DNA of 64,000 nucleotides, taken from contig NZ_FOJG01000002.1 of NCBI RefSeq assembly GCF_900110835.1, positions 2,446,979-2,510,978 on the forward strand, written 5' to 3'. The notes beneath the pieces are model-generated. The model was not told where the DNA came from and ran no database searches. It was given only the letters and a program-made list of their open reading frames with translations. Shown piece after piece: positions 1 to 14,028 of the stretch; within the stretch, counting starts at the first letter, position 1, and each line of letters opens with the position of its first letter. The stretch is from Chitinophaga arvensicola. GTDB lineage: Bacteria > Bacteroidota > Bacteroidia > Chitinophagales > Chitinophagaceae. Both the position numbers and the translations under genes were made by a program.

Positions 1-1447
1 TCAGTAACCTGTTTTTAATTGCCGATAGTTCATCAATATGGGGAAAAGGTATCCGATACTGACTCACAAGACGCTGAAACTGATTTATGAGGCTCTGAAG
101 ACTTGTAAACCTCACAGGATGCGTTGAAACTGTACCGTTGGTATCCTTGACCCTGAAAAACCACGAATCGTTGTTATCGGAAATAGCAAACTTATCCTTC
201 GCAATCACCATCGCACTATTCTCTCCATCATCCGCAGCAAATCCTGGATGCACAGTATTTTCGGGCAATATAATTCTCAAAATACGCTCAAATTCCTTTC
301 TCAAATAATTTGCGCTTGCGGGGTAATCGCAGTGAATGAAGTGAAATTCGGCTCTTTCCTTGTAAGTATCAGAGCGCCTGATGAATGGTCTATCAGGCTG
401 CTGGGCATGATTATCTACATAAAACTCAAAATGCTTCCATCTTTTCTTCAGGTAACTTTTCGCTACTACAAACCATTCCCTGTCATATGTTGTAAGGAAA
501 ATCTGAAAATCACGGAAAGAACTTCCATCACCAAGATCTTCTGCCGACAGAATTTTTATAAGGGGAATTCTGTTGGACATATCAAGCCCTGTAAAAATAT
601 CATCCAGAAAAAGAAGTCTGATCGTAGCAGGAGGTAATGTCAATAAATGGGCAAGATATACAGATATGGCCATAGAGGTTAATCTTGCCTCATTCAGAAA
701 CTCATGATGTCCTGATATATTAGTTCCAAACATACTTACATCAAAAGATATTCCGGGCGCTATAACATTTCCATCGAGAACTCGGGAATCAGTATATACT
801 ATACTGAGTTCGCATTCCCTATGAAATATGGAAAGAAGCATATTAGCTTTTGACTGTAAATTTTCAAGCAATGCATAAGCATTCAGATTATAATCATCAA
901 TATCCCGCTGCTGCCTGTTTGTAACGACCTTTTCCCATAAATCACCGAATGACATTTTATTAGCAGGATTCACAGGTGCCGGCAATTCCAGATCGGTAAA
1001 AAGTCCGTTTGTCCCCAGGAAAAAAGCAGTCAGATCAGGCATTTCTTCATTCTCTCTGAAATGCAGTTTCAAAAGATCTCTGTAACTGATAAATCCTTTC
1101 AGGATATTTGCCTCCCTTATCAGATGGCTGGTTGATGTGTTGGTCAGGGCAGGGTCTGACGAGAAGTAAATACTCTGCCCATCCTCCAGCACTATACGGA
1201 TGTGGGGCGGATCAGACACATTATCCTGCTTACAGAAAAGATTCCTTTTGAAGATATGTGCATTAGATTTCCCTGACAGGAAAAGGTCTTTCAATCCCTT
1301 GTAAAGGGAAGATTTCCCACTTCCATTCTCTCCATAGATCAAAAGATTCTCCCCGAGTGGGAGATCAATCTGATATCTTTCCTTTTCTTCATCATTATGA
1401 TTCAGAAAAGCACGGTAATTGCTAACCAGGATAGTTTTAATTTTCAT
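1..1447 (-). CDS. SMC/RecF-like AAA ATPase of a defence operon (3' end outside window)
   Basis: The minus-strand frame is open from an ATG at 1447 to the window edge, giving about 482 visible codons with no stop. The N-terminus has the ABC/SMC-type Walker A GENGSGKSS at residues 39-47. A Walker B-like LFLDDIFTGLD lies near residues 281-291 and is followed by an Asn/Arg/Ile-rich helix. The architecture is that of RecF/SbcC-like AAA_15/AAA_23 ATPases common in phage-defence loci. Further on, a stretch with ANYLRKEFERIL resembles the C-terminal region of such ATPases. No TOPRIM or nuclease motif is visible in the part present. The gene starts 11 bases after the Z1 stop, so it is the fifth cistron of the operon. 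It probably works with the Z1 and GHKL proteins; that role is inferred. A C-terminal nuclease beyond the window cannot be excluded. Confidence 0.8.
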   Translation of the reverse strand, partial: MKIKTILVSNYRAFLNHNDEEKERYQIDLPLGENLLIYGENGSGKSSLYKGLKDLFLSGKSNAHIFKRNLFCKQDNVSDPPHIRIVLEDGQSIYFSSDPALTNTSTSHLIREANILKGFISYRDLLKLHFRENEEMPDLTAFFLGTNGLFTDLELPAPVNPANKMSFGDLWEKVVTNRQQRDIDDYNLNAYALLENLQSKANMLLSIFHRECELSIVYTDSRVLDGNVIAPGISFDVSMFGTNISGHHEFLNEARLTSMAISVYLAHLLTLPPATIRLLFLDDIFTGLDMSNRIPLIKILSAEDLGDGSSFRDFQIFLTTYDREWFVVAKSYLKKRWKHFEFYVDNHAQQPDRPFIRRSDTYKERAEFHFIHCDYPASANYLRKEFERILRIILPENTVHPGFAADDGENSAMVIAKDKFAISDNNDSWFFRVKDTNGTVSTHPVRFTSLQSLINQFQRLVSQYRIPFPHIDELSAIKNRLL

Positions 1448-1458
1448 AACGGGTCATA

Positions 1459-4400
1459 CTACAGATTTCTGTACATATAGTTAATCTTGTCAATGGCAGT
1501 AACTGCATACACCGCTTTTTTTATACTGCTGTCGGGTTTATTCATACTGTCATAGTATGATTGAAATTGTTCCAACGAGTTAACAAAGGTTGGAAGCATA
1601 TCCAATTCATCCAGCACTGATAATTTACTTCTACTAAACTCCTCAGAAAAATAAATTTCCAACACTGCTACATCTAACACATTAATGAAGTAGGATGCTA
1701 ATTTAGCTGATTCCCGGGAAAGCTGTTTTGATTTGAGAACCTGAATGCTTCTGACCAATGTCTCTATCCCTTTATTTCCAATGGCCCTTCTGTCAATTGG
1801 AAAATCTTTCACAATGGAGACTGTATCCTTCGCACCGCTATTCCTACGTTTATAATCGTAGGCAAATACAACTGAGTTCAACAGTGCACTTAAATACGCA
1901 GCAGGAACACCATCAATGCTGATTGCAATACAGTCTTCATAAATTACATATTTACCGAAATAAAGACCAAAAGCCTGGTCTGAATATATTCGGGGAGCAA
2001 TCACAACACCTTCACCTGCATCCAAAGCACTGCCATTCACAACCCAAAATTCCGATTCTGCCTTTAGATAGTACCGTTCAATATCTTCTGCCCTGAACAA
2101 CGGGAAACTGTCCTCAGGCCTGATAGCTGCAGGGACAGCTATTACCTGGCTGTCATTTTTCTTCAGCGTGGTGCTGAAGGTAACCTTTGTTCCATCGATA
2201 TGAAAATCCTTGAGCATTTTATTTACCCCTCCCAGTCCATCTAAAAAAGAATCCAAATCTTGCTGAAGTCTGTCAACTTCGTCTTCTGTCTCGATTAACA
2301 GTTCATCCTCATTCTGCTCATCCAGTTCCTCCGGGTAATTCAATTCTTTCAGGAATTGCTCATTTACCGCATACTCGATTGGCGTATCTTTTGAAATATC
2401 AGGAAAACTTATGGCAAGCCCTATCAGAGGCAATTCTGCAACAGGGGGCTTTCCCTTTTCGGGTATATTGTCCAGGACATAAATTAACAATAGCCCATTT
2501 GAAACTGGCCTTTGCTCTCTGATACGTGAAGGAGAGGGGATGCTCACCCGTCCGGCATCCTTTCCTGCTTTGGCAGCATCTACGATGGTATTATCCATCG
2601 CTCTTTTGATCTGATCATCTGTCAAATCAATGAATTCATGCCTGGGATCAATCAACCGCGATTTCGCAATTGTATAGTTATAGCGATCTCCCTTATCGGC
2701 CCTTCGGGTTTTACCAACTTTTACATCTTTGTTAATGTCAAACCTACCAGCATCTTCCGTATTAGTAATCAGTACAATTGTCCAGTTGCATAATACTGAC
2801 TGATTAATTTGCGCCGCGATATATCTGGTAATCAGCACCCGGTTGAAAGAAGGTTGATCCGTGATGAAATCATTGAGGTAGTCAAGCACCTGGTCTACAT
2901 TATCTTTCCCTTGCCAGATATAATGATTTTTAAAGCTGGATTCGGTATTCGGAGCAATACCAGGAGGGCCAATTTCATTTATTAGCCGAAGCGTTCTGTT
3001 ATAGTTTTGCAGATGACGTTTTCGATCATTCTTTTTAAATGTATAGGTTTCTATCAAAATCCCGGAAAAACTCAGTTCCATGATTTTCTTATACCGAAAT
3101 TTATTGGCAGCAGTAATCACCAATGAGCCGGGATGCGTTCTTACCTTCAGCCCATATTCTGCAGGGATGCGGCCAAGGTCACTCATGTGATCAAATTCAG
3201 CCTTCATTTCTTCCGTCGCAATGGTAATATGTCTGTACCAATCTACCATCTCACTGCTCGTAAATAGCCTGCAGAGATCCAGGTAACCCGGCCGGTATCC
3301 AAACCAGCGTCCCATCTGCATGAGCGTATCGTACATTTTTGATGCACGTAGAAAATAGCTTATAGTCAATCCTTCCAGAGTAAGACCACGTGAAAGCTTG
3401 TTACCTCCCACCGCAATCACCGACAATCCGGATTCCCGATTATCATAATAGTCTAATGGCCGGATATTTTTATGTTCCAGATTTTCAATCCGGGTATCTC
3501 CATGTACCGCTCTCACTTCAATTTTGGCCGTTGCCGGATGCAGATGAGGCAGCAGGTCCAACCAGTCAAGGGTAACGATGCCTTTGTCCCTTACCAGCCC
3601 GTTATCAATGATCTGTCGTGTAACAGGTACAAATTCATTTACCCAGAGTACCTCAAGTTCACGGAGAAAACAAGGGTCACTCAGCTCTACTTTGCCTGCA
3701 TAATCCTTTACAACTTCCAGAACCAGATCCGCGATACGATCCTGCCAGGATGTGAATCTTGACATATGGACAAGCATTGAATTATGCTCTTTTTCCTGTC
3801 CTCTTGCCCTTCTGGCGGCACATGTCAGAAAAAAACATCTGACGGCCTTTTTCAGGCTGGGCGGAAGATCTGTCATCCGGGAATCCGTCAACCCAGGACC
3901 GGGCACAAAGGCTTTATGTCCTTCTTTTATATAGGAATCATAATCGTCTACTATTTCGTACAGTTTCACAAATTCTTCCGACTGATCAGCACTCTTGTTG
4001 CCATCCACAAAGAATACCTTCTCAGGCCCGATATAATTGGAAGGAGCAGGTATGTTGACAATAAAATTCTTCGGAAAAATATCTTCACCCAGCGTAAAAG
4101 CCATATTGTTCACAGAGTATTTCAACCCCTTCTCATCCTCGCCTCCACCCTGCTTGATAAATATGTTTGCGTAAGGTGTGGCAGTATAACCAATATATAC
4201 GCTTTTCTCAAACAATTTTATCATCGCCCTTATACAGGCATTAACGCCGGAAACCTGGCTTCTGCTGATATTTATTGACGCGTTATCTGCCTCATCATCA
4301 ATAATAAGTAAAGGGACATTCTTAATCAGCTTCATCTGATCACTCATTGTTTCCCCCCTGCTATACAGCCACCCAAGAAGATTTCTCAATACTGTCACAT

Positions 4401-5142
4401 TCTTTTTAACTGTAATAATAACGGGATCATTTCCTCTTATATTAGTCCCTGATTTTTCGGAAGCCTGACGGCTGAAATCACCATCTATCGCATTTGTAGT
4501 CAAAGAATGTGCAGCCAGATTAGGGTTAATTCTCCCTACTCCAATCCTGTTACTTGTCTGACTCAGACTGCGTGCCTGTTGTGTATCAAATCCAAGAAAT
4601 CCCTCATCAATGCGCAATTGAGTCTGCGAACGCAGACTATTATGGACACCGGCTAGTACAATGATTATTTTGTATCCTACATCTGCCGCTTTACAGATTA
4701 AGCCTATATAATTCCCCGTTTTGCCGGATTGTACCTGTCCGACAATCAACCCTCGTTTATCATATCGTTCACTTGTTCCTGGTTCCGGTAACCGGTCCAG
4801 AATATCATCCGTCAGGTTATCCAGTTTGTTGATTGTATCGGGCGCATAATTTTTCTTCTCCAGTAACCTTCTATACCGATTCCAGAAACTCCAGGATACA
4901 TTTGCCTTTGCATTTTTAACCCAGGGTTCTGGTCTTGTATCATCAAGTATTCTATACTGATCTGAAAAAACCGCGAACAGGGTTTCAAGTTCTTCCTGCA
5001 TCCTGGCAAGCAACGGCACATCCAGTCCGAATAACAGATTAGCCCTGGCGATTGTTTCCCTGATGTAATCTGCATTGATTATTTCAGTTGTGCCGGAAAG
5101 CAGGGTTATACATACATTCTTTGCCTGGTCATAATTACTCAT
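1459..5142 (-). CDS. Z1-domain helicase-like protein with C-terminal TRD-like module
   Basis: This 1227-aa protein has a superfamily II-like ATPase core: Walker A GQVQSGKT at 135-142, Walker B DDEAD at 282-286, YTATPYAN at 319-326 and the arginine-finger motif QMGRWFGYR near 605-615. Together these are the signature of Z1 proteins, which occur with MutL-like ATPases in restriction-modification-like defence islands. The protein looks longer than a bare Z1 protein. After an acidic helical linker (about 940-990), residues about 1010-1130 contain YLSALLNSVVFAYDY and, after a short basic loop, IVKDFPI. That pattern resembles the TaqI-like C-terminal target-recognition domain of N6-adenine methyltransferases. 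No methyltransferase catalytic motif is present. The start codon overlaps the GHKL gene stop as ATGA, indicating translational coupling. The Z1 call is confident; the tail assignment is an inference. Confidence 0.85.
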   Translation of the reverse strand: MSNYDQAKNVCITLLSGTTEIINADYIRETIARANLLFGLDVPLLARMQEELETLFAVFSDQYRILDDTRPEPWVKNAKANVSWSFWNRYRRLLEKKNYAPDTINKLDNLTDDILDRLPEPGTSERYDKRGLIVGQVQSGKTGNYIGLICKAADVGYKIIIVLAGVHNSLRSQTQLRIDEGFLGFDTQQARSLSQTSNRIGVGRINPNLAAHSLTTNAIDGDFSRQASEKSGTNIRGNDPVIITVKKNVTVLRNLLGWLYSRGETMSDQMKLIKNVPLLIIDDEADNASINISRSQVSGVNACIRAMIKLFEKSVYIGYTATPYANIFIKQGGGEDEKGLKYSVNNMAFTLGEDIFPKNFIVNIPAPSNYIGPEKVFFVDGNKSADQSEEFVKLYEIVDDYDSYIKEGHKAFVPGPGLTDSRMTDLPPSLKKAVRCFFLTCAARRARGQEKEHNSMLVHMSRFTSWQDRIADLVLEVVKDYAGKVELSDPCFLRELEVLWVNEFVPVTRQIIDNGLVRDKGIVTLDWLDLLPHLHPATAKIEVRAVHGDTRIENLEHKNIRPLDYYDNRESGLSVIAVGGNKLSRGLTLEGLTISYFLRASKMYDTLMQMGRWFGYRPGYLDLCRLFTSSEMVDWYRHITIATEEMKAEFDHMSDLGRIPAEYGLKVRTHPGSLVITAANKFRYKKIMELSFSGILIETYTFKKNDRKRHLQNYNRTLRLINEIGPPGIAPNTESSFKNHYIWQGKDNVDQVLDYLNDFITDQPSFNRVLITRYIAAQINQSVLCNWTIVLITNTEDAGRFDINKDVKVGKTRRADKGDRYNYTIAKSRLIDPRHEFIDLTDDQIKRAMDNTIVDAAKAGKDAGRVSIPSPSRIREQRPVSNGLLLIYVLDNIPEKGKPPVAELPLIGLAISFPDISKDTPIEYAVNEQFLKELNYPEELDEQNEDELLIETEDEVDRLQQDLDSFLDGLGGVNKMLKDFHIDGTKVTFSTTLKKNDSQVIAVPAAIRPEDSFPLFRAEDIERYYLKAESEFWVVNGSALDAGEGVVIAPRIYSDQAFGLYFGKYVIYEDCIAISIDGVPAAYLSALLNSVVFAYDYKRRNSGAKDTVSIVKDFPIDRRAIGNKGIETLVRSIQVLKSKQLSRESAKLASYFINVLDVAVLEIYFSEEFSRSKLSVLDELDMLPTFVNSLEQFQSYYDSMNKPDSSIKKAVYAVTAIDKINYMYRNL

Positions 5143-6641
5143 AAGCTCGCAATTAACTCTGGATATTCATTAAATGGTTCTATTAAAATTAATCTGGATT
5201 TTACCTCCCCAGGCGTAGATGTTCTGATCAATACACCATACATTTCTTTCAACAACTTCTTTAACTCCTTCAATTTCTCACCCTCAAAAGGCCTGCTGAC
5301 ATCTTCGACATTCTGCCCCGCAGAAAAGTCCAGTACATTTACCGGAACTGTTTCTTCCAGCAAATGAAGCAGGGGAGAAAGATTTGTCTGAACAGAATTC
5401 AGTACCACCGGATGATTTCTGTTGATTTCATAAAATCGGTGTCCATGTTTCTGTTTTTCGAACCATACAGGTTGAAAGTTTTCCTCCGTGATGTTTTTCC
5501 TGCTAATTATTTTTCCTTTATGATTATAAACTTCAGCGGATTTAGAACATATTGCCGCAGCATATGCTTTAATTCTATCAATATATCCGACGGGCAGACG
5601 GGCGATTGATTTTTTAATATCAATCTGCCATTCTCCATCCATTGAATTTGGGAGATCCAGCATTATACGAGACAATGTATAAAGTTTCTGCTTACGCAAT
5701 AAGCCTAACCAACTCCCTCCCAGCAACAACCTCTCATTCCTGTAAACATAGAATCCTTGCTGGGCATACCATCCATTTATTCCCTCGGCACGCTCATAAT
5801 CGCCCCTCGCCAATTTTGACTGATGTGGTAAGACAAAACCACGAAGTTTAACCCGCCCGTTATCAAGCAATTCTTCAGGAAAGCTTTGTGTTGCAGAATG
5901 TGTCGGGAGAAATGGATTCCAGGGTTCTATTTCACGCCCCTGAAAGTAGATCTTAACCTTCCTGCTTTCCAAAAAGCGATGATAAACAAGTCCCAGATGT
6001 CTCTTGGCCTTTATCATGACTTCTTCGAATAACTTCTGAGCTTTGGGGTCATCTTTCCGGACACCACCTACCAAACGGTCCAGATCATTCCATAAAACAA
6101 TTGTTCCGGATTCCAGTTTTCCAAGTTCATCAGCCCAGTCTCCCTTTGGCATGTATTCCAATAATTCCCACTTTCGTGAATGATCACATACAAAGTCGAG
6201 ATCCCATGTAAGAAATACAACCTGTTGCTCTGCCCTTCTGGACATAACTGAAAACATTTTGCATTGGGAAAATGACGCAGTTTTTAACCCAAGACCAAAT
6301 CGCCCAAGATCTTCCGAGGCTCGTTCGTCTTCAGGATCTTTGCTTCCAGGTCTCATTGCCTCCAACAATTCAGCATCGTTCATACCACAACCATCATCCA
6401 TAAAGGCGACAGAAGTTTCTGAACCGGACCATACATAATTAATCCAGATGCTTTTTGCGCCTGCCGATATAGAGTTATCTAGTATATCTGCCATAGCTGC
6501 TTCCAGACTGTAACCTATAGCCCGTAAAGATTTGAGGATCTGGGGCGCTGCAGGGTCAGCAGTTCTGGTGCTGTAAAGGGAATAGTCCATTCGCATCACG
6601 TAAAATTTATATATCACATGGGTTACACAGTAAGAATCCAT
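5139..6641 (-). CDS. MutL/MORC-like GHKL ATPase
   Basis: A GHKL ATPase of 500 aa. The Bergerat fold is clear: N-box ADILDNSISA with D55 and N56, G1 box DDGCGM at 82-87, and G2 box LGRFGLGLK at 112-120. The phrase ILKSLRAIGYSLE before the N-box is typical of the MutL/MORC-like ATPases found beside Dcm, Vsr and Z1 genes, rather than of mismatch-repair MutL, whose C-terminal endonuclease domain is not seen. The protein probably acts as an ATP-driven DNA clamp for the system (inference from the family). The first 15 residues look unlike a protein N-terminus, so translation may begin at Met16 (6596) or Met18 (6590). It overlaps the Z1 gene by 4 bases and follows the methyltransferase gene after 91 bases. 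Confidence 0.85.
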   Translation of the reverse strand: MDSYCVTHVIYKFYVMRMDYSLYSTRTADPAAPQILKSLRAIGYSLEAAMADILDNSISAGAKSIWINYVWSGSETSVAFMDDGCGMNDAELLEAMRPGSKDPEDERASEDLGRFGLGLKTASFSQCKMFSVMSRRAEQQVVFLTWDLDFVCDHSRKWELLEYMPKGDWADELGKLESGTIVLWNDLDRLVGGVRKDDPKAQKLFEEVMIKAKRHLGLVYHRFLESRKVKIYFQGREIEPWNPFLPTHSATQSFPEELLDNGRVKLRGFVLPHQSKLARGDYERAEGINGWYAQQGFYVYRNERLLLGGSWLGLLRKQKLYTLSRIMLDLPNSMDGEWQIDIKKSIARLPVGYIDRIKAYAAAICSKSAEVYNHKGKIISRKNITEENFQPVWFEKQKHGHRFYEINRNHPVVLNSVQTNLSPLLHLLEETVPVNVLDFSAGQNVEDVSRPFEGEKLKELKKLLKEMYGVLIRTSTPGEVKSRLILIEPFNEYPELIASL

Positions 6642-6732
6642 AGGGATACTCTACACCTGCCCTGATATCACTTAAGTAATATACGATTTTGAGGGGTTGC
6701 ACGGTAATTATCTATAAAATTCATCCTTCTCT

Positions 6733-8352
6733 TCAATAAAAAATGTCCTGCACAATCTGAGCAATTTGATAAGCCAGATACGGCGGCACGGCATTGCCAA
6801 CCTGATGAAATTGTTGCGTACGCTCCCCGCAAAAGTAGTAGTTGTCAGGAAATGTTTGCGCCCTTGCAGATTCTCTTACAGTAAGACTTCTGCATTGAAC
6901 CGGATCATAATGTATAAAATAGTGACCGTCTTTGGCAATATGGCTCGTAATGGTCGTTGCAGAAGAGTCTGGCAACTGCACCCGGAATCTGTCTGAGAAT
7001 TTCCCCGAGTCGGCATTCTCATGATCAGGCAACAGATCAGCGCCAGCTTTCTTATAATCTTCCATTCTCGGAAAATTGCCATTCACCTCTACATAACGCG
7101 CAGCAAACAGATAGCGTTTAAGATCCTGTACCAAATGCTTCCTGGATACATGATGCATTACACCGTTCAATCTGTCATCTGCATACCAGCTCCTCAACGG
7201 ATGACCAACTTTAAGATTGAATTTCCCAGGCCCCATAAACTCCTTCCCAAGGCTTGACGGATATACAATACCTTCCCTATCCTCCTCAATTTTCAATATC
7301 CTGTCAACCTGCCGGGTATATCTCTGAATATACCTCAGCCACCTTTCCTCATTATCCTCCACATTTTTATAGTGTCTTTTCTTTTTCTCATTGCCTTCCT
7401 CATCCTGAATGGTAGTGATATGGGAAAATTCCTTTGTTACACCGCTTCGAATAACAGGAAGACTTCCGATCACCGATTTTAACGTCACCTCCTTTTGCTT
7501 TTGAAGAACCTTACGGGGAGCGCTGATGTCTTCTCTTACCCCAAGCAAAATCACTCTGTGTCTTTTCTGAGGAACCCCATAGTCTTCAGCTTTTATTATA
7601 AAATCTCTCGGGTCATAGGAAGGTGTGCCATAAAGATCATACTGCGTAGGTTTTGTAGTAAGCGAATATATCCTGTACTTTATCATTTTCTTCTTTGCAT
7701 CAATAGTCTCGCCTTCAGAAATGCAAGCTGAGACGGGATCCGAAAGATCTTTCAAAATTCTACCGAACACATATTCTTCCTCCGTCTGAGCAGACAATAG
7801 CCCCTTCACATTTTCCATTACAAATACTGCGGGCTTATGAACAGCTATAATTCGAAGATATTCTTTATATAAACCAACTCGTTTATCCTTACTGCTGTCA
7901 AGTTTCTTCTCCTGTCTCCTTGACCGTCCAGCCAGTGAATAAGCCTGGCAAGGAGGCCCACCAATCAAAACCCAGTCCCCGGCCCCCCTGAGTACTCTTG
8001 ATATTCTTTTATCTACCTCTTCATTGCTGACGCCGTTTGTATCCTTTTCATCGGGATCTCCCAAAGTACCGCACCATGCCTCATCAGCAGCAAGTCTGGC
8101 TTCACCAGGGTACAATTCATACAATTCCTCCAGCGAGATTTTGCCTCTGACAAACTGATAATATTCCTCCGGTACTTCTCCAACAGGAAATTGTCTGAAA
8201 AAACTTCTAAGCTGTAATGTTTGGTGTGCATAGGAATCTTTTTCAATGGATAATTTGATCTTGAAAACCCTTTCATGTCTGGAGTTAAACACCGATGAAA
8301 ATCCTTCACCCAATCCTCCGGGCCCTGCGAAAATGTCAATTATTGGTATCAT
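6733..8352 (-). CDS. DNA (cytosine-5)-methyltransferase
   Basis: This 539-aa C5-cytosine methyltransferase transfers methyl from S-adenosylmethionine to cytosine in DNA. Motif I is DIFAGPGGLGEGF at 6-18. Motif IV is GGPPCQAYS with catalytic C135, motif VI is ENVKG at 180-184, and motifs IX-X (RESARAQTFPDNY, then QVGNAVPPYLA) close the C-terminus. It is longer than a minimal Dcm-type enzyme because of extra sequence between motifs I and IV and a long variable region before motif IX, which should hold the target-recognition domain. It sits 17 bases after the vsr gene, which fits a self-marking enzyme for the adjacent restriction-like genes. The recognition sequence cannot be read from the gene. 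All key residues are intact, so it is probably active. Confidence 0.93.
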   Translation of the reverse strand: MIPIIDIFAGPGGLGEGFSSVFNSRHERVFKIKLSIEKDSYAHQTLQLRSFFRQFPVGEVPEEYYQFVRGKISLEELYELYPGEARLAADEAWCGTLGDPDEKDTNGVSNEEVDKRISRVLRGAGDWVLIGGPPCQAYSLAGRSRRQEKKLDSSKDKRVGLYKEYLRIIAVHKPAVFVMENVKGLLSAQTEEEYVFGRILKDLSDPVSACISEGETIDAKKKMIKYRIYSLTTKPTQYDLYGTPSYDPRDFIIKAEDYGVPQKRHRVILLGVREDISAPRKVLQKQKEVTLKSVIGSLPVIRSGVTKEFSHITTIQDEEGNEKKKRHYKNVEDNEERWLRYIQRYTRQVDRILKIEEDREGIVYPSSLGKEFMGPGKFNLKVGHPLRSWYADDRLNGVMHHVSRKHLVQDLKRYLFAARYVEVNGNFPRMEDYKKAGADLLPDHENADSGKFSDRFRVQLPDSSATTITSHIAKDGHYFIHYDPVQCRSLTVRESARAQTFPDNYYFCGERTQQFHQVGNAVPPYLAYQIAQIVQDIFY

Positions 8353-8369
8353 TATATCTTTATATGCTA

Positions 8370-8795
8370 CTATTTTTTCCTTTCCTTAATTCTGATCAGA
8401 ATATCCATAAGACAACCAGGTCTTCTGTCCTTCTTTAAATCACATTCCCACACTACAAGTACGTTCCAGCCTAACTGCTGTAAACGCTCTGTTACAACAA
8501 CATCATTTGAGACAGTCTTGTTGATTTTGTCCAACCACCACTCCGTTTTCGTTTTGGGAACAACAAAATATTTACAACCGGTGTGCCCATGCCAAAAGCA
8601 TCCATTTACAAACAAAACTGTTTTGTATTTCGGGAAAACTATATCTGGCCTACCCGGTAATTTTTTATCATGCAGTTTATACCTTATCCCCTGAGAAAAG
8701 AGAAACTTACGCACCACCAGCTCTGGTTTGGTATCTTTCCCTTTTATCCTGCTCATATTGTAACTTCTTCGCTCACGGGTGTGTACATCTGTCAT
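8370..8795 (-). CDS. vsr: Very short patch repair (Vsr)-type endonuclease
   Basis: A 141-aa protein that matches Vsr over its whole length. It shows MSRIKGKDTKPELVVRKFL near the N-terminus, catalytic D51 in LPGRPDIVF and H69 in CFWHGH. Zn-binding candidates are C66, H71, C74 and C118. Classical Vsr nicks T:G mismatches produced by deamination of 5-methylcytosine, which fits the adjacent cytosine methyltransferase. In MutL-like/Z1 islands a Vsr-fold protein has also been proposed to be the restriction nuclease, and the two roles cannot be separated here. It is the first cistron of the minus-strand operon, about 165 bases from the 3' end of the tRNA-Ser gene. No strong -7/-33 pair was found upstream; the loose match TAGTTTTTG at 8851-8859 on the minus strand has one base too many. 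Confidence 0.93.
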   Translation of the reverse strand: MTDVHTRERRSYNMSRIKGKDTKPELVVRKFLFSQGIRYKLHDKKLPGRPDIVFPKYKTVLFVNGCFWHGHTGCKYFVVPKTKTEWWLDKINKTVSNDVVVTERLQQLGWNVLVVWECDLKKDRRPGCLMDILIRIKERKK

Positions 8796-9267: not shown

Positions 9268-10686
9268 TTATTTCCATCCACCGCCCAAAGAACGGTATAG
9301 ATCTACCATTGCACTTAACCGCTGACGGTCAATATCAGCCTGACCCAGTTCTGCCTGCAGGGCACGTGACTGAGCAGTGATTACTTCCAGGTAATTTGCC
9401 ATACCGCTACGGAACAGCATTTGCGCCTGTTGTACAGCCAACTGGGAAGTATTTACCTGGCGAAGGGCGATTTCCTGTTGTGATTTCACTTTGTCCAACC
9501 GGATCAATGCATCACTCACTTCTCCAATTGCCTGTAAGGCTAACTGACGGAAAGATAATACTGCGGATTCCCGGCGGATCTTAGCCACTTCCAACTGAGT
9601 TTTCAATTCTCTGCGTTGGAAAATAGGCTGGGTAAGACTACCAGCCACTGTTCCGAACAGCGATGCAGGCATCGTAAACCAGCTACTCGCCTTAAAGGCA
9701 TTTAAGCCTCCGCTGGCGGTGATCGACAGGCTAGGATACATGGCGCCCTGCGCAACTCCTACACGTGCATTTGCAGCCACTAATGCCATTTCCTGGGATC
9801 TAACATCCGGGCGACGACTGATCAGTTCTGCCGGCACGCCTGAAGGCAGGAATGCTGGTACATCAAAGCTGCTTAACTGGCTGGTACGACTCACCGGACC
9901 AGGTAATTCACCTGTTAAAATACGCAGCGCATTTTCCTGGATAGCAATACCTTGCTCTAACTGAGGTACAAGTAATTCGGCCTGCTGTTGCTGGCTGATA
10001 GCCTGTTGAACCCCAAGCTCAGTTACCTCGCCTGCAGTTTTCTGCAGTTGTATCATTTTTACAACGGTATCGCTGAGGGCTAAGTTCCTTTTAGCTATCT
10101 GCAACTGGTTATCCAGCATTAACAGGTTAAAATAACTGTTAGCAACGGAAGCAACCAGGCCTGTTTGCACAGCGTGCTGCCCTTCGTAGGTCTGCAGGTA
10201 ATCAGCCAGGGCAGCTTCTTTCTGACGACGGATTTTTCCCCAGACATCAATTTCCCAGGAAAGACCAGCACCCAGGTTATAATCTTCCAGGTGTTCTCCC
10301 AGGTTGTTGGCCGCAAGGTTCACACCTGTAAAACTATTCTTCGACGGGAAATTGGTACTTGCAGATGCAGTTCCATTAATGGAAGGCAACCAGGCAGCTT
10401 TTGCCTGACGTAAGAACGATTGTGCCTCTTCTACCCTTTTAACTGCAATCAGTAAATCATAGTTACTTGTCAGCGCCTTACCTATTAACTGTTGCAGCGT
10501 TGCATCAGTAAAGAACTGGTTCCAGGCAATACTGGCAATGCTACTATCTGATGGTGCTGCCGTGTTGTTGTACTGTTCGGGCAGCGCCACCGGTGGCCGC
10601 TCGTAATTGCGGCCAACCCGGCATGCTGCTAATCCTACAACTAAGGAGAACAACAAAAAGTAAAATGAGCTATATCTTGTTTTCAT
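9268..10686 (-). CDS. RND efflux outer-membrane factor lipoprotein (OprM/NodT family)
   Basis: This 472-aa TolC-like outer-membrane channel component has a lipoprotein signal ending in LVVGLAAC, so C22 is the likely lipidated residue. The following RVGRNYERPPVALPEQY is the standard start of mature NodT/CusC-family proteins. Two internally similar OEP halves are visible, with ELISRRPDVRSQEMALVAANARVGVAQ in the middle. The C-terminus LYRSLGGGW is also typical. It is the last gene of the operon, 41 bases after the RND pump gene. It would form the exit duct for the inner-membrane pump and the adaptor encoded upstream. Confidence 0.93.
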   Translation of the reverse strand: MKTRYSSFYFLLFSLVVGLAACRVGRNYERPPVALPEQYNNTAAPSDSSIASIAWNQFFTDATLQQLIGKALTSNYDLLIAVKRVEEAQSFLRQAKAAWLPSINGTASASTNFPSKNSFTGVNLAANNLGEHLEDYNLGAGLSWEIDVWGKIRRQKEAALADYLQTYEGQHAVQTGLVASVANSYFNLLMLDNQLQIAKRNLALSDTVVKMIQLQKTAGEVTELGVQQAISQQQQAELLVPQLEQGIAIQENALRILTGELPGPVSRTSQLSSFDVPAFLPSGVPAELISRRPDVRSQEMALVAANARVGVAQGAMYPSLSITASGGLNAFKASSWFTMPASLFGTVAGSLTQPIFQRRELKTQLEVAKIRRESAVLSFRQLALQAIGEVSDALIRLDKVKSQQEIALRQVNTSQLAVQQAQMLFRSGMANYLEVITAQSRALQAELGQADIDRQRLSAMVDLYRSLGGGWK

Positions 10687-10727
10687 TTGTCTTTTTTCTG
10701 ATTCTAATAATAGATAATGCTAATGTT

Positions 10728-13700
10728 TTAGTGCACCAGCTTTGCTTCATGTCCTGCTTCCACTTCCACTATCGGCTTGCGGCTGATTTTCTCTTGCAGG
10801 AACTGGAAGATTACAAACAGCACAGGTATGATGAATACCCCCAGGACCACACCGGTAAACATGCCACCTACAGTACTCCAACCAATGGAATGATTTCCTT
10901 TGGCAGATGCACCCTGTGTAAAGATTAATGGCAACATACCAACAATAAATGCAAAGGAAGTCATCAATATTGGACGAAGACGAAGCTGTGCTGCTTCCAA
11001 AGCCGCCTCAACAAGCTTATAGCCTGCCTTTCGCCGCTGTACCGCAAACTCCACAATCAGGATCGCATTTTTAGCCAATAAACCTATCAGCATGATCATA
11101 CCTATTTGTACGTAGATATTGCCCTCTATGCCACTAAAGCCGATGAAACTATATACACCTAATATACCCGTAGGTACAGTAAGGATTACTGCCAGCGGCA
11201 GGATATAGCTTTCATACTGTGCAGCCAGCAGGAAGAATACGAACAATACACTCAATAAAAACACGAACGCAGTCTGGTTCCCTGCTCTTATCTCTTCCCT
11301 CGTAATACCCGTAAACTCATAGGCATATCCTTTGGGCAATGAATTTTTCGATACTTCTCCAATGGCTTTAATTACATCACCGGTACTATAACCTGGTTTG
11401 GGTGTAGCATTAATGGTAACAGCACCATACAGGTTGTTTCGTGTAACTGTTTCCGGACCATATACACGTGTGAATTTGGCCACTGTGCTTACCGGTACCA
11501 TCGTACCCAGGTTGTTTTTTACGTAAATAGCATCCAACGAACTTTTATCCATCCGGTATGAAACGTCGGCCTGCGCCATTACGCGGCTATATTTACCGAA
11601 ACGGTTAAAGTCTGATACGAAACTACTACCATAGTAGGTTTGCAGCGTATTCAACAAATCACCAACAGATACACCCAATTGTTTCACTTTTATTTCATCT
11701 ATATCAATTGTGTATTGTGGGTTACCTGTATTAAAGGTAGTGAACGCACTTGCCACTTCCGGCCGCTGACTTAATGCACCAACAAAACCCCATGCCGTTC
11801 CTGCCAATTTCTCCAGTGATCCGTTTGCTCTGTCCTGCAACATCATTTCTACCCCGCTCACGTTACCGAAACCTTGTATTGTTGGAAAACCAACAAAGAA
11901 AGTTAAGGCATCATGTACTTGCATTGATTTGCCTAACAAACCGCCTGCAATAACAGTAGGGTCTTTTACAACACCTCTCTCTTTACGATCTTTTAATCTT
12001 ACGAAGATCGCAGCATTAGGAGAAGCGTTCGCATTTGTTACGAAGTTCATCCCATTTGCAGCCCAAACATCACTCACAGCCTCATCATTCATCGTAATTT
12101 TACTAATCTGGCTCGTTGCATTCTCCGTTCTGCTAAGTGAACTTCCGGGAGGTGTTTGGGTAATACCAACTACGAAGCCTTGATCCTCATCCGGAATAAA
12201 CCCGGTAGGTGTTGTTTTGATCAGCCAAAAAGTAGCAACCACCACAAGCAGTAATCCGGTAATGGCCACCCATCTGTTCTTCAACAGAAATTTAATGCTC
12301 CGTATATATCTTGCCGTCATTGCATTAAAAGCGGTATTAAACGCATGGAAGAAGCGGGCACCAAAACCCTTTTTCTCTCCACCTTCGCCGATATGCTGAT
12401 TCTTTAAGAATAAAGCACACAACGCCGGACTTAGCGTTAACGCATTCACCGCAGAAATAACGATCGCAATGGCCAGTGTAAAAGCGAATTGTTTATAAAA
12501 CACCCCTGCAGGACCTTGTACAAAGCTCACTGGTACAAACACGGCTGCCATTACCAATGTGATTGAAACAATCGCACCGGATATCTCATTCATCGTTTTT
12601 ACTGTTGCCTCTCTCGCCGGTAAATGCTCACGTTCCATCGTTGAGTGTACAGCCTCCACAACCACAATGGCATCATCCACCACAATACCGATAGCCAGTA
12701 CCAATGCGAACAATGTAAGCAGGTTAATGCTAAAGCCGAATAATTGTAAGAAGAAGAAGGTACCTATAATCGAAACCGGAACAGCAATTACCGGGATCAA
12801 TGTAGAGCGCACATCTTGCAGGAAAACGAAAACCACGATGGCCACCAGGATGAACGCAATGATCAGTGTTTCTTTTACCTGGTCGATGGATGCATCCAAA
12901 AACTCTTTCGAGTTATACATGATCTTAAACTTCATACCATCAGGTAACGCCTTGTCAAATTCTCCAATCTGTCTTTCCAGTTCGGTAAGAATTTCATTGG
13001 CATTGGAACCCGGTGTCTGCAAAATACCAAAACCAGTAGCAGGCTTACCATCGAGCAAATTCGAGGCAGTGTAAGTATAGCCACCAAGTTCAACCCTGGC
13101 CAGATCTTTAAGGCGAAGAACAGAACCATCGTTCTTTGCCTTAATCACCATATTCTCATACTCCTCAGGCTTATTTAACTTTCCCTTATACTTAATAATA
13201 TACTCGAAAGATTCTTTACTACTTTGTCCCAAACGTCCTGGTGCAGCCTCTACGTTCTGATCTCTGATTGCATTCATCACCTCTGTTGTAGAGAGATTAT
13301 TAGCAACAAGCCTATCGGGTTTCAACCAGATACGCATCGAGTAATCTTTTGAACCAAACGGCTGTACCTGTGCTACCCCTGGTATACGTTGTAACTGAGG
13401 GATGATATTAATTCTTGCATAGTTATTTAAGAACAGTTCGTTATACTTAACGCTATCCTCGCTGTATATCGCCACAAACATCAGGAAGCTGCTCTGCACT
13501 TTCTGTGTGGAAAGCCCGGCTTGTAATACTTCGGGAGGTAACTGGCTATTAGCTTTAGATACGCGGTTTTGCACGTTTACCGCCGCAATATCAGGATCCG
13601 TTCCTTGTTTAAAATAAACTGTCAAGATGTAGCTACCATCGTTGTTGGAATTGGAGGTCATGTACGTCATGTTCTCCACACCATTTACCGATTCTTCTAT

Positions 13701-13892
13701 CGGGGTAGCAACTGTACGGGCTATCACCTCCCCGTTGGCGCCGGGGTAATTGGCTATAACCTGTACAGATGGCGGCGCAATCTCAGGAAATAAAGCCGTA
13801 GGCAGGGAGAATAAAGACAACCCTCCCAGTATAACCAATATGATAGAAATAACCGTTGATAACACCGGCCTTTCAATAAATCGTTTTAACAT
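10728..13892 (-). CDS. Hydrophobe/amphiphile efflux RND pump (AcrB-like)
   Basis: An inner-membrane proton-driven multidrug exporter of about 1054 aa, the standard HAE1 length. The start MLKRFIERPVLSTVISIILVILGGLSL is the canonical first helix. The paired acidic residues of the proton relay are in LAIGIVVDDAIVVVEAV. Porter and docking domains are complete in both halves, and the last helices include GLLAKNAILIVEFA. The open frame extends three codons upstream to a TTG at 13901, but the ATG at 13892 gives the usual N-terminus. The 136-base gap to the adaptor gene shows no clear terminator, so the three genes are probably co-transcribed. The substrate cannot be predicted. Confidence 0.95.
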   Translation of the reverse strand: MLKRFIERPVLSTVISIILVILGGLSLFSLPTALFPEIAPPSVQVIANYPGANGEVIARTVATPIEESVNGVENMTYMTSNSNNDGSYILTVYFKQGTDPDIAAVNVQNRVSKANSQLPPEVLQAGLSTQKVQSSFLMFVAIYSEDSVKYNELFLNNYARINIIPQLQRIPGVAQVQPFGSKDYSMRIWLKPDRLVANNLSTTEVMNAIRDQNVEAAPGRLGQSSKESFEYIIKYKGKLNKPEEYENMVIKAKNDGSVLRLKDLARVELGGYTYTASNLLDGKPATGFGILQTPGSNANEILTELERQIGEFDKALPDGMKFKIMYNSKEFLDASIDQVKETLIIAFILVAIVVFVFLQDVRSTLIPVIAVPVSIIGTFFFLQLFGFSINLLTLFALVLAIGIVVDDAIVVVEAVHSTMEREHLPAREATVKTMNEISGAIVSITLVMAAVFVPVSFVQGPAGVFYKQFAFTLAIAIVISAVNALTLSPALCALFLKNQHIGEGGEKKGFGARFFHAFNTAFNAMTARYIRSIKFLLKNRWVAITGLLLVVVATFWLIKTTPTGFIPDEDQGFVVGITQTPPGSSLSRTENATSQISKITMNDEAVSDVWAANGMNFVTNANASPNAAIFVRLKDRKERGVVKDPTVIAGGLLGKSMQVHDALTFFVGFPTIQGFGNVSGVEMMLQDRANGSLEKLAGTAWGFVGALSQRPEVASAFTTFNTGNPQYTIDIDEIKVKQLGVSVGDLLNTLQTYYGSSFVSDFNRFGKYSRVMAQADVSYRMDKSSLDAIYVKNNLGTMVPVSTVAKFTRVYGPETVTRNNLYGAVTINATPKPGYSTGDVIKAIGEVSKNSLPKGYAYEFTGITREEIRAGNQTAFVFLLSVLFVFFLLAAQYESYILPLAVILTVPTGILGVYSFIGFSGIEGNIYVQIGMIMLIGLLAKNAILIVEFAVQRRKAGYKLVEAALEAAQLRLRPILMTSFAFIVGMLPLIFTQGASAKGNHSIGWSTVGGMFTGVVLGVFIIPVLFVIFQFLQEKISRKPIVEVEAGHEAKLVH

Positions 13893-14028
13893 AAATAACA
13901 ATTATGGTTGCGGTATGTCCGCGCGAACACAAACAGTGCATGTGTGTAACAACACTGCCTGCGTCGCAATTTGAATAATGTTGTGTGTAAACGTTCTTAG
14001 CACTGGCGTGCCTACACGCTTAATTATT

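Follow-up and report, generated by a model that had tools for sequence, protein, structure and literature searches.

How does a restriction-like operon work when the DNA nuclease carried by its relatives is missing? This is the question raised by six genes at the left edge of a 64,000-nucleotide stretch of the Chitinophaga arvensicola genome (8.3 Mb in three contigs; NCBI RefSeq assembly GCF_900110835.1, contig NZ_FOJG01000002.1, positions 2,446,979 to 2,510,978 of the forward strand); we refer to the whole of this stretch as the window. The six genes form an operon of the order Vsr-Dcm-GHKL-Z1-AAA-AIPR, the first five of them on the minus strand. The original prediction, made from the letters of the window, had seen the first five and had proposed that a tail on Z1 and an AAA ATPase replace the two proteins, DUF4420 and AIPR, that usually complete such Mza-type loci. 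We find that the DUF4420 place alone is taken, by a linked pair consisting of a target-recognition domain (TRD) on Z1 and an ATP-binding cassette (ABC) ATPase with a HEPN-like C-terminal region. With moderate confidence, we read the locus as a recurring new form of the Mza-like Z1/paraMORC system, one where a DNA-sensing TRD and an ABC-HEPN-like effector have taken over from a DNA nuclease.

The Z1 gene (1459..5142, minus strand; 1227 residues; Pfam Z1, 6.5e-78) begins with an MzaC-like superfamily-2 core (residues 1-930; 2353..5142), which carries DTLMQMGRWFG at residue 605, fitting the motif DThhQXuRhFG. PADLOC MzaC matches residues 65-930 (7.8e-159), and since this match stops at residue 930 of 1227, the tail of about 300 residues is real. 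The AAA protein comes next; residues 1-482 of its 629 are encoded within the window (1..1447, minus strand; AAA_21, 1.5e-6), and its gene stops 443 bases to the left of window base 1. After a gap of 9 bp there follows a sixth gene, 453 to 2540 bases to the left of the same point, which encodes an AIPR protein of 695 residues (PF10592, 2.6e-92; PADLOC MzaE, 9.6e-81). The five predicted genes are confirmed in position, strand and tight spacing, with Pfam and PADLOC matches far above chance. Hidden Markov model searches that took in the part of the AAA gene outside the window upheld all five family assignments and identified the sixth protein as AIPR. What does not survive is the claim that the new parts displace AIPR, since the AIPR gene adjoins the AAA gene on its left. 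A DUF4420 or AIPR gene in that position had been named as a sign of a standard Mza locus; with AIPR present and DUF4420 absent genome-wide, the locus is neither standard Mza nor one without both proteins. The overall reading therefore stands in part: library matches confirm an operon of Z1, MutL-like, Dcm and Vsr genes whose effectors are arranged differently, and the replacement holds for the DUF4420 place and fails for that of AIPR.

For comparison we used Z1 matches from 14 of 395 genomes of the phylum and 8 of 147 genomes of the family, counts that include the window genome and correspond to 18 other genomes. Ordinary loci (L063-L080) mostly read Vsr/Dcm-GHKL-Z1-(a gene of about 330 residues)-AIPR, the form with a restriction-endonuclease-fold (RE-fold)/DUF4420-type gene that is already described in passages of Iyer, Abhiman and Aravind 2008 (PMC2292703) and of PMC9523054, the latter printing the family as 'DUF4220'. 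Their Z1 proteins are 882-1018 residues long (one fragment, 512), and none matches the tail. The gene of about 330 residues is DUF4420 where scanned (Pfam, 2e-82 in L077 and 1.2e-79 in L084, a locus to which we return below), PADLOC MzaD matches are present in L077, L079 and L084 (4.2e-25 to 2.3e-20), and the residues E, D and ExK are invariant in all 15 aligned proteins from this place, L084 included. DUF4420 is present in 16 of the 17 testable tail-less Z1 loci, in 14 by place and alignment and in two by profile (L073 and L076); L063 was left out of this count because a contig end cuts the locus. The exception is L067:13279-17779, where AIPR comes about 110 bp after Z1 and no DUF4420 or AAA gene was found.

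A genome-wide search with PF14390 (DUF4420/MzaD) gave no match anywhere in the window genome, nor in five other genomes whose loci have the new pair and lack DUF4420; these six genomes include two metagenome-assembled genomes (MAGs), and completeness figures cover two only. The same search finds both known carrier genomes (2.5e-79 and 2.0e-82); 14 further named genomes intended as controls contain no DUF4420 and hence provide no control. We also considered and rejected a DUF4420 domain hidden in the AAA protein or in the tail of Z1, for which Pfam, PADLOC and a purpose-built DUF4420 profile were all negative, six frames of the neighbouring stretches included; hhalign of the tail against DUF4420 gives 0.2 per cent.

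Profile matches and a predicted fold together identify the tail as a DNA target-recognition domain of TaqI type (TaqI_C-like; about residues 957-1120; 1783..2274, minus strand) with a helical end (about residues 1121-1227; 1459..1782, minus strand). A profile built from seven tails matches the C-termini of Eco57I-type (type IIG) methyltransferases that precede other relatives of the AAA gene (best 1.6e-20), and Pfam TaqI_C is found in all six of these IIG partners that were scanned. In hhalign comparisons, the tail scores 99.6 per cent against 12 IIG partners; for two four-member sets of GmrSD-like partners the scores are 96.9 and 88.6 per cent (the latter over 134 columns). AIPR and Dcm, tried as sources of the tail, reach 11.5 and 0.1 per cent and are rejected. 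An AlphaFold2 model of Z1 residues 914-1227 (predicted template modelling score 0.80) matches CamA (Z 14.1, 3.3 A, 196 residues), BpuSI (Z 10.5), M.TaqI (Z 10.2) and HsdS (Z 10.1), with M.BseCI, BrxX/PglX, MmeI and EcoKI bound to Ocr also among the matches. By title, 46 of the 50 fold-match rows are DNA-modification or restriction enzymes or specificity (S) subunits; the other four are two Esub1 entries, whose role is not in the title, and two designed helical proteins. Pfam PF12950 (TaqI_C) itself gives no match for the window Z1 and a match under the cut-off for that of L086 (0.014). The tail varies much more than the core, with identities between the window and the other variant proteins of 26-55 per cent as against 60-73 per cent. 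The helical end is common to other proteins encoded just before AAA relatives, and we presume that on Z1 it is a docking site for the AAA protein.

We infer from conserved residues that the AAA protein is ABC-HEPN-like and may act as a ribonuclease. A model of its relative from L086 has a Rad50/SMC-like head (Foldseek best, 3.2e-9; Z up to 19.7) with structural matches to Rad50, cohesin, condensin and RecF; the VIA-align rows for this model span residues 1-359 only. Beyond the head, the only invariant residues are Arg383, Glu387 and His487, found in all 39 aligned rows and in all contexts. A serine (Ser486) precedes the histidine position in 37 of the rows, and an asparagine matching the RloC-type Asn-x2-Arg is present in 30; the codons for Ser486 and His487 fall a little beyond the window edge. 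The 39 rows represent 38 distinct sequences (L040 and L093 are the same protein), and the alignment leaves out L029, L032 and L038 (cut or broken genes) and L107 (a near copy of L106). For RloC, the relevant part of Davidov and Kaufmann (PMC2610378) gives the signature Arg-X3-Glu-X36-52-His, often with Ser before His, and describes a Rad50-like ATPase domain and a loss of anticodon-nuclease activity when any triad residue is changed to Ala; in a passage of PMC3710099, RloC/PrrC and DUF4145 are counted as members of the HEPN superfamily. In 12 PF13166 (RloC/PrrC-type) proteins from the same phylum, Asn-x2-Arg-x3-Glu and Ser-His are invariant. Weak Pfam matches in the C-terminal region of the AAA proteins come most commonly from the HEPN clan (DUF4145 in 5/38, best 1.1e-4; HEPN in 5/38, best 0.0017), with TPR_2 in 4/38, probably by chance. 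The window genome also encodes, at C1:104005-106200 (L118), a PF13166 protein (7.6e-141) with Arg-x3-Glu ... Ser-His. Three AAA relatives are broken or truncated (L029:2102-3553, L032:9188-9805 and L038:9752-10846, two of them interrupted by an in-frame stop), a state that would fit loss of the partner at these loci.

The variant, that is, a tailed Z1 together with AAA, AIPR, GHKL and Dcm, occurs at seven loci, which answers the earlier question of whether the gene set recurs as a unit; Vsr is seen in five of the seven and is unseen in L086 and L089 within the stretches examined. In all seven, Z1 is 1207-1266 residues long, and its gene overlaps that of AAA or lies no more than 11 bp from it. 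Three of 79 congeners, the window genome included, have the AAA gene. One of them, G585 (L083), has the identical six-gene set beside the same efflux genes, and the other, G546 (L084), combines GHKL, tailed Z1, AAA, DUF4420 and AIPR with divergent Dcm and Vsr. At L084:4692-6378, the Dcm and Vsr genes point away from the rest, and the Dcm is of a different type (433 residues, 37-39 per cent identical to the other variant Dcm proteins). The remaining four variants come from a pattern scan of one genome per species across 84,980 species, with three AAA proteins as query, and belong to Sinomicrobium pectinilyticum, a Bacteroidales MAG, a Flavobacteriales MAG and Aquiflexum lacus; because the scan relied on two short peptide patterns, the 22 loci that it returned are no census. 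A scan of genome contigs with a single AAA protein gave no match, and one with an alignment of three proteins did. No relative was found in viral contigs; among plasmids three records match AAA and 39 match Z1, and no match extends across 80 per cent of the query.

A midpoint-rooted tree of 23 Z1 cores, from which L072 (a fragment) and L076 (divergent) were left out, splits the seven variant cores from 16 tail-less ones (bootstrap 100), and L084, the sole variant that keeps DUF4420, branches first among the variants (bootstrap 95). The presence of both DUF4420 and the new pair in L084 fits a gain of the pair before the loss of DUF4420, and the simplest history is that the tail and AAA were gained first and DUF4420 was lost afterwards. 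An effector swap has apparently been caught in stages: DUF4420 alone, DUF4420 with the new pair (L084), and the new pair alone (six loci).

Related AAA genes also follow other kinds of protein. Across 41 distinct loci outside the window genome, the gene directly upstream of AAA encodes a IIG methyltransferase in 20, a GmrSD-like protein in eight, Z1 in six and some other protein in six, and is absent or beyond a contig edge in one. Of the 20 loci with a IIG methyltransferase, 15 also have a PLD-SNF2 gene upstream, and several of the remaining five reach the end of their contig at that point (the duplicate L093 is excluded from these counts). The resulting operon of a PLD-SNF2 helicase, a IIG Eco57I-TaqI_C methyltransferase and AAA (L027-L044 and L090-L104, e.g. 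L034:8766-17268) is found mostly in Bacteroidota, frequently with 4-bp overlaps; PADLOC models match its parts piecemeal only, and we found no name for it in the literature searched. In the stretches of 10-20 kb that contain the 18 AAA relatives from the other genomes of the phylum and family samples (L027-L044), there is no match to a Z1 core, GHKL, Dcm, Vsr or AIPR. The GmrSD_N (DUF262) proteins, of about 1000 residues and with AAA directly after them, are encoded at L091:6859-11881, L097, L098 and L099-L103; GmrSD_N is confirmed in L091, L099 and L101, L091 has a weak TaqI_C match, and the C-termini of the sampled proteins resemble the Z1 tail. For a match on a Nostoc plasmid, the annotation names an AAA ATPase alongside a TaqI-like C-terminal specificity protein. 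Tentatively, and with more doubt than confidence, we suggest that a TRD with a helical end and an ABC-HEPN ribonuclease form a portable cassette carried by unrelated heads (Z1, IIG methyltransferase and GmrSD), which would turn sequence-specific DNA sensing into RNA cleavage. A classical restriction system would thus become a DNA-triggered, translation-stopping suicide system, and the DNA-cutting nuclease of the Mza-like operon would be fully displaced here.

Upstream of Z1, the operon opens with a Vsr-type endonuclease of 141 residues (8370..8795, minus strand; TIGR00632, 6.6e-43, above its curated cut-off; Pfam Vsr, 2.2e-35), followed by a C5-cytosine DNA methyltransferase, Dcm, of 539 residues (6733..8352, minus strand; PF00145 (DNA_methylase), 3.2e-45; TIGR00675 above cut-off), which has the motifs PCQ at 134 and ENV at 180. 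The third gene encodes an MzaB-like GHKL (MORC/paraMORC-like) ATPase of 500 residues (5139..6641, minus strand; PADLOC MzaB, 1.7e-99; Pfam HATPase_c_3, 1.1e-28), whose two PDB matches are MORC4 (2.1e-4) and MORC3 (0.0081); PDB sequence searches with AIPR and with Z1 gave no match. The gaps from Vsr to AAA are, in order, 17, 91, -4 and 11 bp. At L086:4077-4868, a NOV_C (NO VEIN C-terminal) gene (2.1e-14) stands immediately before GHKL; genes of similar size stand before GHKL in L087 and L088, and L077 has a similar-looking gene of 259 residues. The operon is preceded in the window genome and in G585 by an RND efflux/TolC-like pair (window 9268-13901; L083:1-3360). In all six other congeners examined (L138-L143), the 4-7 kb that follow the TolC-like gene with the best match are occupied by other genes and contain no operon gene, such that the operon site looks accessory.

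We propose that Dcm would mark host sequence as self, and that the TRD on Z1 would read the same site in its unmarked state. The two ATPases, GHKL and Z1, would spend ATP on remodelling the complex, and the helical end of Z1 would relay the signal to the ABC head. The HEPN-like C-terminal domain, with its RloC/PrrC-type Arg-Glu-His triad, would cleave RNA, probably tRNA, halting phage growth while the cell is sacrificed (abortive infection). Vsr would repair deaminated 5-methylcytosine sites, as is the role of its family. AIPR could stay as a further effector, possibly as a second toxic arm; a passage of PMC3506569 describes AIPR with an N-terminal HEPN domain. There is precedent for the coupling in PrrC, which the relevant parts of three accounts present as an ABC-HEPN nuclease that is silenced by a type I restriction-modification (R-M) enzyme and freed by a phage anti-restriction peptide (PMC2610378, PMC3710099, PMC3506569).

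We looked for covariation across the seven variant loci, with core identity regressed out and significance taken from permutations. Tail identity correlates with Dcm identity (r 0.60, 8/5040 permutations; 0.64, 10/720 without L084; 14/5040 in an earlier run on rounded values), and the tail shows no correlation with GHKL, AAA or AIPR (r -0.13 to 0.03). With L084 removed, the TRD segment follows Dcm (0.79, 3/720) and the helical end does not (-0.02). Over all loci, the helical end gives 0.42 with AIPR (562/5040) and 0.39 with AAA (432/5040); without L084, it gives 0.61 with AIPR (46/720), 0.47 with AAA (50/720) and 0.47 with GHKL (63/720).

A number of results weigh against the proposed mechanism. 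With all loci included, the TRD segment alone covaries weakly with Dcm (0.37, 774/5040), and the helical end correlates with Dcm as well (0.55, 475/5040). The tail-Dcm result is also one of 24 tests on seven related loci, and it is therefore suggestive, and no more, of a TRD that reads the site marked by Dcm. On the side of the effector, no HEPN model exceeds its Pfam cut-off, and the C-terminal region of the window protein gives no Pfam match. PF13166 does not match the AAA protein, and PADLOC lists no PrrC/RloC model for it; hhalign of the C-terminal region against RloC relatives is not significant (probability 0.1-0.2), and of full-length AAA against RloC aligns the ATPase part only (89.8). 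A PDB search with the C-terminal region returned 13 weak rows, mostly designed or unrelated helical chains, and no HEPN nuclease. The distance from Glu to His is 99 in the window, 98-99 in the variant and 56-115 across the family, as compared with 36-52 in RloC. The structural model is that of the L086 relative, with residues 405-448 at a predicted local distance difference test score (pLDDT) <50 and the C-terminal region outside the coverage of the fold search. Lastly, the head is weakly AriA-like (OLD type; PADLOC, 1.8e-6), and a passage of PMC12839542 cautions that OLD-type ABC heads were mistaken for Rad50/SMC ones in the past; the Rad50/SMC assignment of the head is therefore provisional.

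These results leave room for a machine that acts on DNA only, in which the ABC protein would be an SMC-like clamp or loader aiding Z1/GHKL translocation or looping after recognition by the TRD, the C-terminal domain would be structural, and DNA cutting would fall to AIPR, Vsr or a nuclease of the host. The proteins that the head resembles, Rad50, cohesin, condensin and RecF, act on DNA, related AAA genes accompany PLD-SNF2 and GmrSD-like proteins that are possible DNA cutters, and no RloC profile matches the C-terminal region. However, an Arg-x3-Glu and a His as the sole invariants past the head are not expected of a purely structural domain, and library scans of the six operon proteins recognise no DNA nuclease besides Vsr; we consider this alternative unlikely.

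An alternative that keeps the RNA-cleaving arm is that the TRD tail is mainly bait, bound by phage anti-restriction proteins (Ocr-type DNA mimics or Stp-like peptides) whose binding would trigger the ABC-HEPN-like protein, as Stp does for PrrC and Ocr for PARIS. The release of PrrC from its R-M enzyme points in this direction, as does PARIS, in which AriA senses Ocr and unleashes a tRNA-cutting nuclease according to the relevant part of PMC12839542; the head of the AAA protein has its weak likeness to AriA, and the fold matches of the tail include BrxX/PglX and Ocr-bound EcoKI. The covariation of tail and Dcm suggests, by contrast, that the TRD still reads sequence, and we regard a bait as the main role of the tail as improbable. 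That the locus is a standard Mza-like one, where AAA sits by chance and without a role, is very improbable and already largely refuted by recurrence, since the accessory site of the operon agrees with it but tail and AAA occur together, overlapping or at most 11 bp apart, in 7/7 variant loci, and two further kinds of protein, related at the C-terminus, are likewise followed by AAA relatives.

We found no prior description of a TRD on Z1, or of this ABC protein in such an operon, in a search that left most subscription literature outside. The nearest known systems are the Z1-type MORC/paraMORC R-M operons, which, as far as the relevant part of PMC2292703 describes them, share with this operon the GHKL protein, the superfamily-2 protein with DThhQXuRhFG, Dcm and Vsr; the same paper lists AIPR with the genes of R-M operons, and AIPR is present here too. 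Compared with those operons, the RE-fold nuclease (E-D-ExK, DUF4420) is missing here, and a TRD on Z1 and an ABC-HEPN-like protein are added. Homologues of MzaB, MzaC and MzaE stand in the same order as in MzaABCDE and the related Type I/II systems, going by the account in part of PMC9523054, whereas MzaD is absent, the NCBIfam cut-offs are missed (MzaB 405/850, MzaC 625/1500 and MzaE 353/1050 bits), and no MzaA (sigma factor) is found among the six operon proteins, the only ones scanned. With the seven loci and the tail-Dcm covariation, both the site specificity of Mza-like systems and their discrimination of self from non-self become directly testable.

With RloC/PrrC, as treated in the relevant part of PMC2610378, the AAA protein shares an ABC head (Rad50-like in RloC) and an invariant C-terminal Arg-x3-Glu ... 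(Ser)His; PrrC is coupled to an R-M enzyme, and the AAA protein sits in an R-M-like operon. It differs in its longer Glu-His gap, in an extra beta-rich C-terminal part seen in the model, in lacking a conserved zinc-hook CxxC (the 39 rows contain a single CxxC, by chance), and in being unmatched by PF13166 and without a significant profile match. Seen in its stages, the swap offers a testable case of a restriction system possibly moving from DNA cutting to RNA cutting. The PLD-SNF2/IIG/AAA operons, in which no Dcm, GHKL or AIPR was found in the stretches fetched, have the tail on an adenine-methyltransferase-type protein instead of Z1, and have in common with the operon described here an AAA gene of the same family after a related TRD and helical C-terminus. 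Should the same TRD-ABC pair function with three different heads, the way in which PrrC-type systems couple restriction to tRNA cleavage would be a single case of a broader modular principle.

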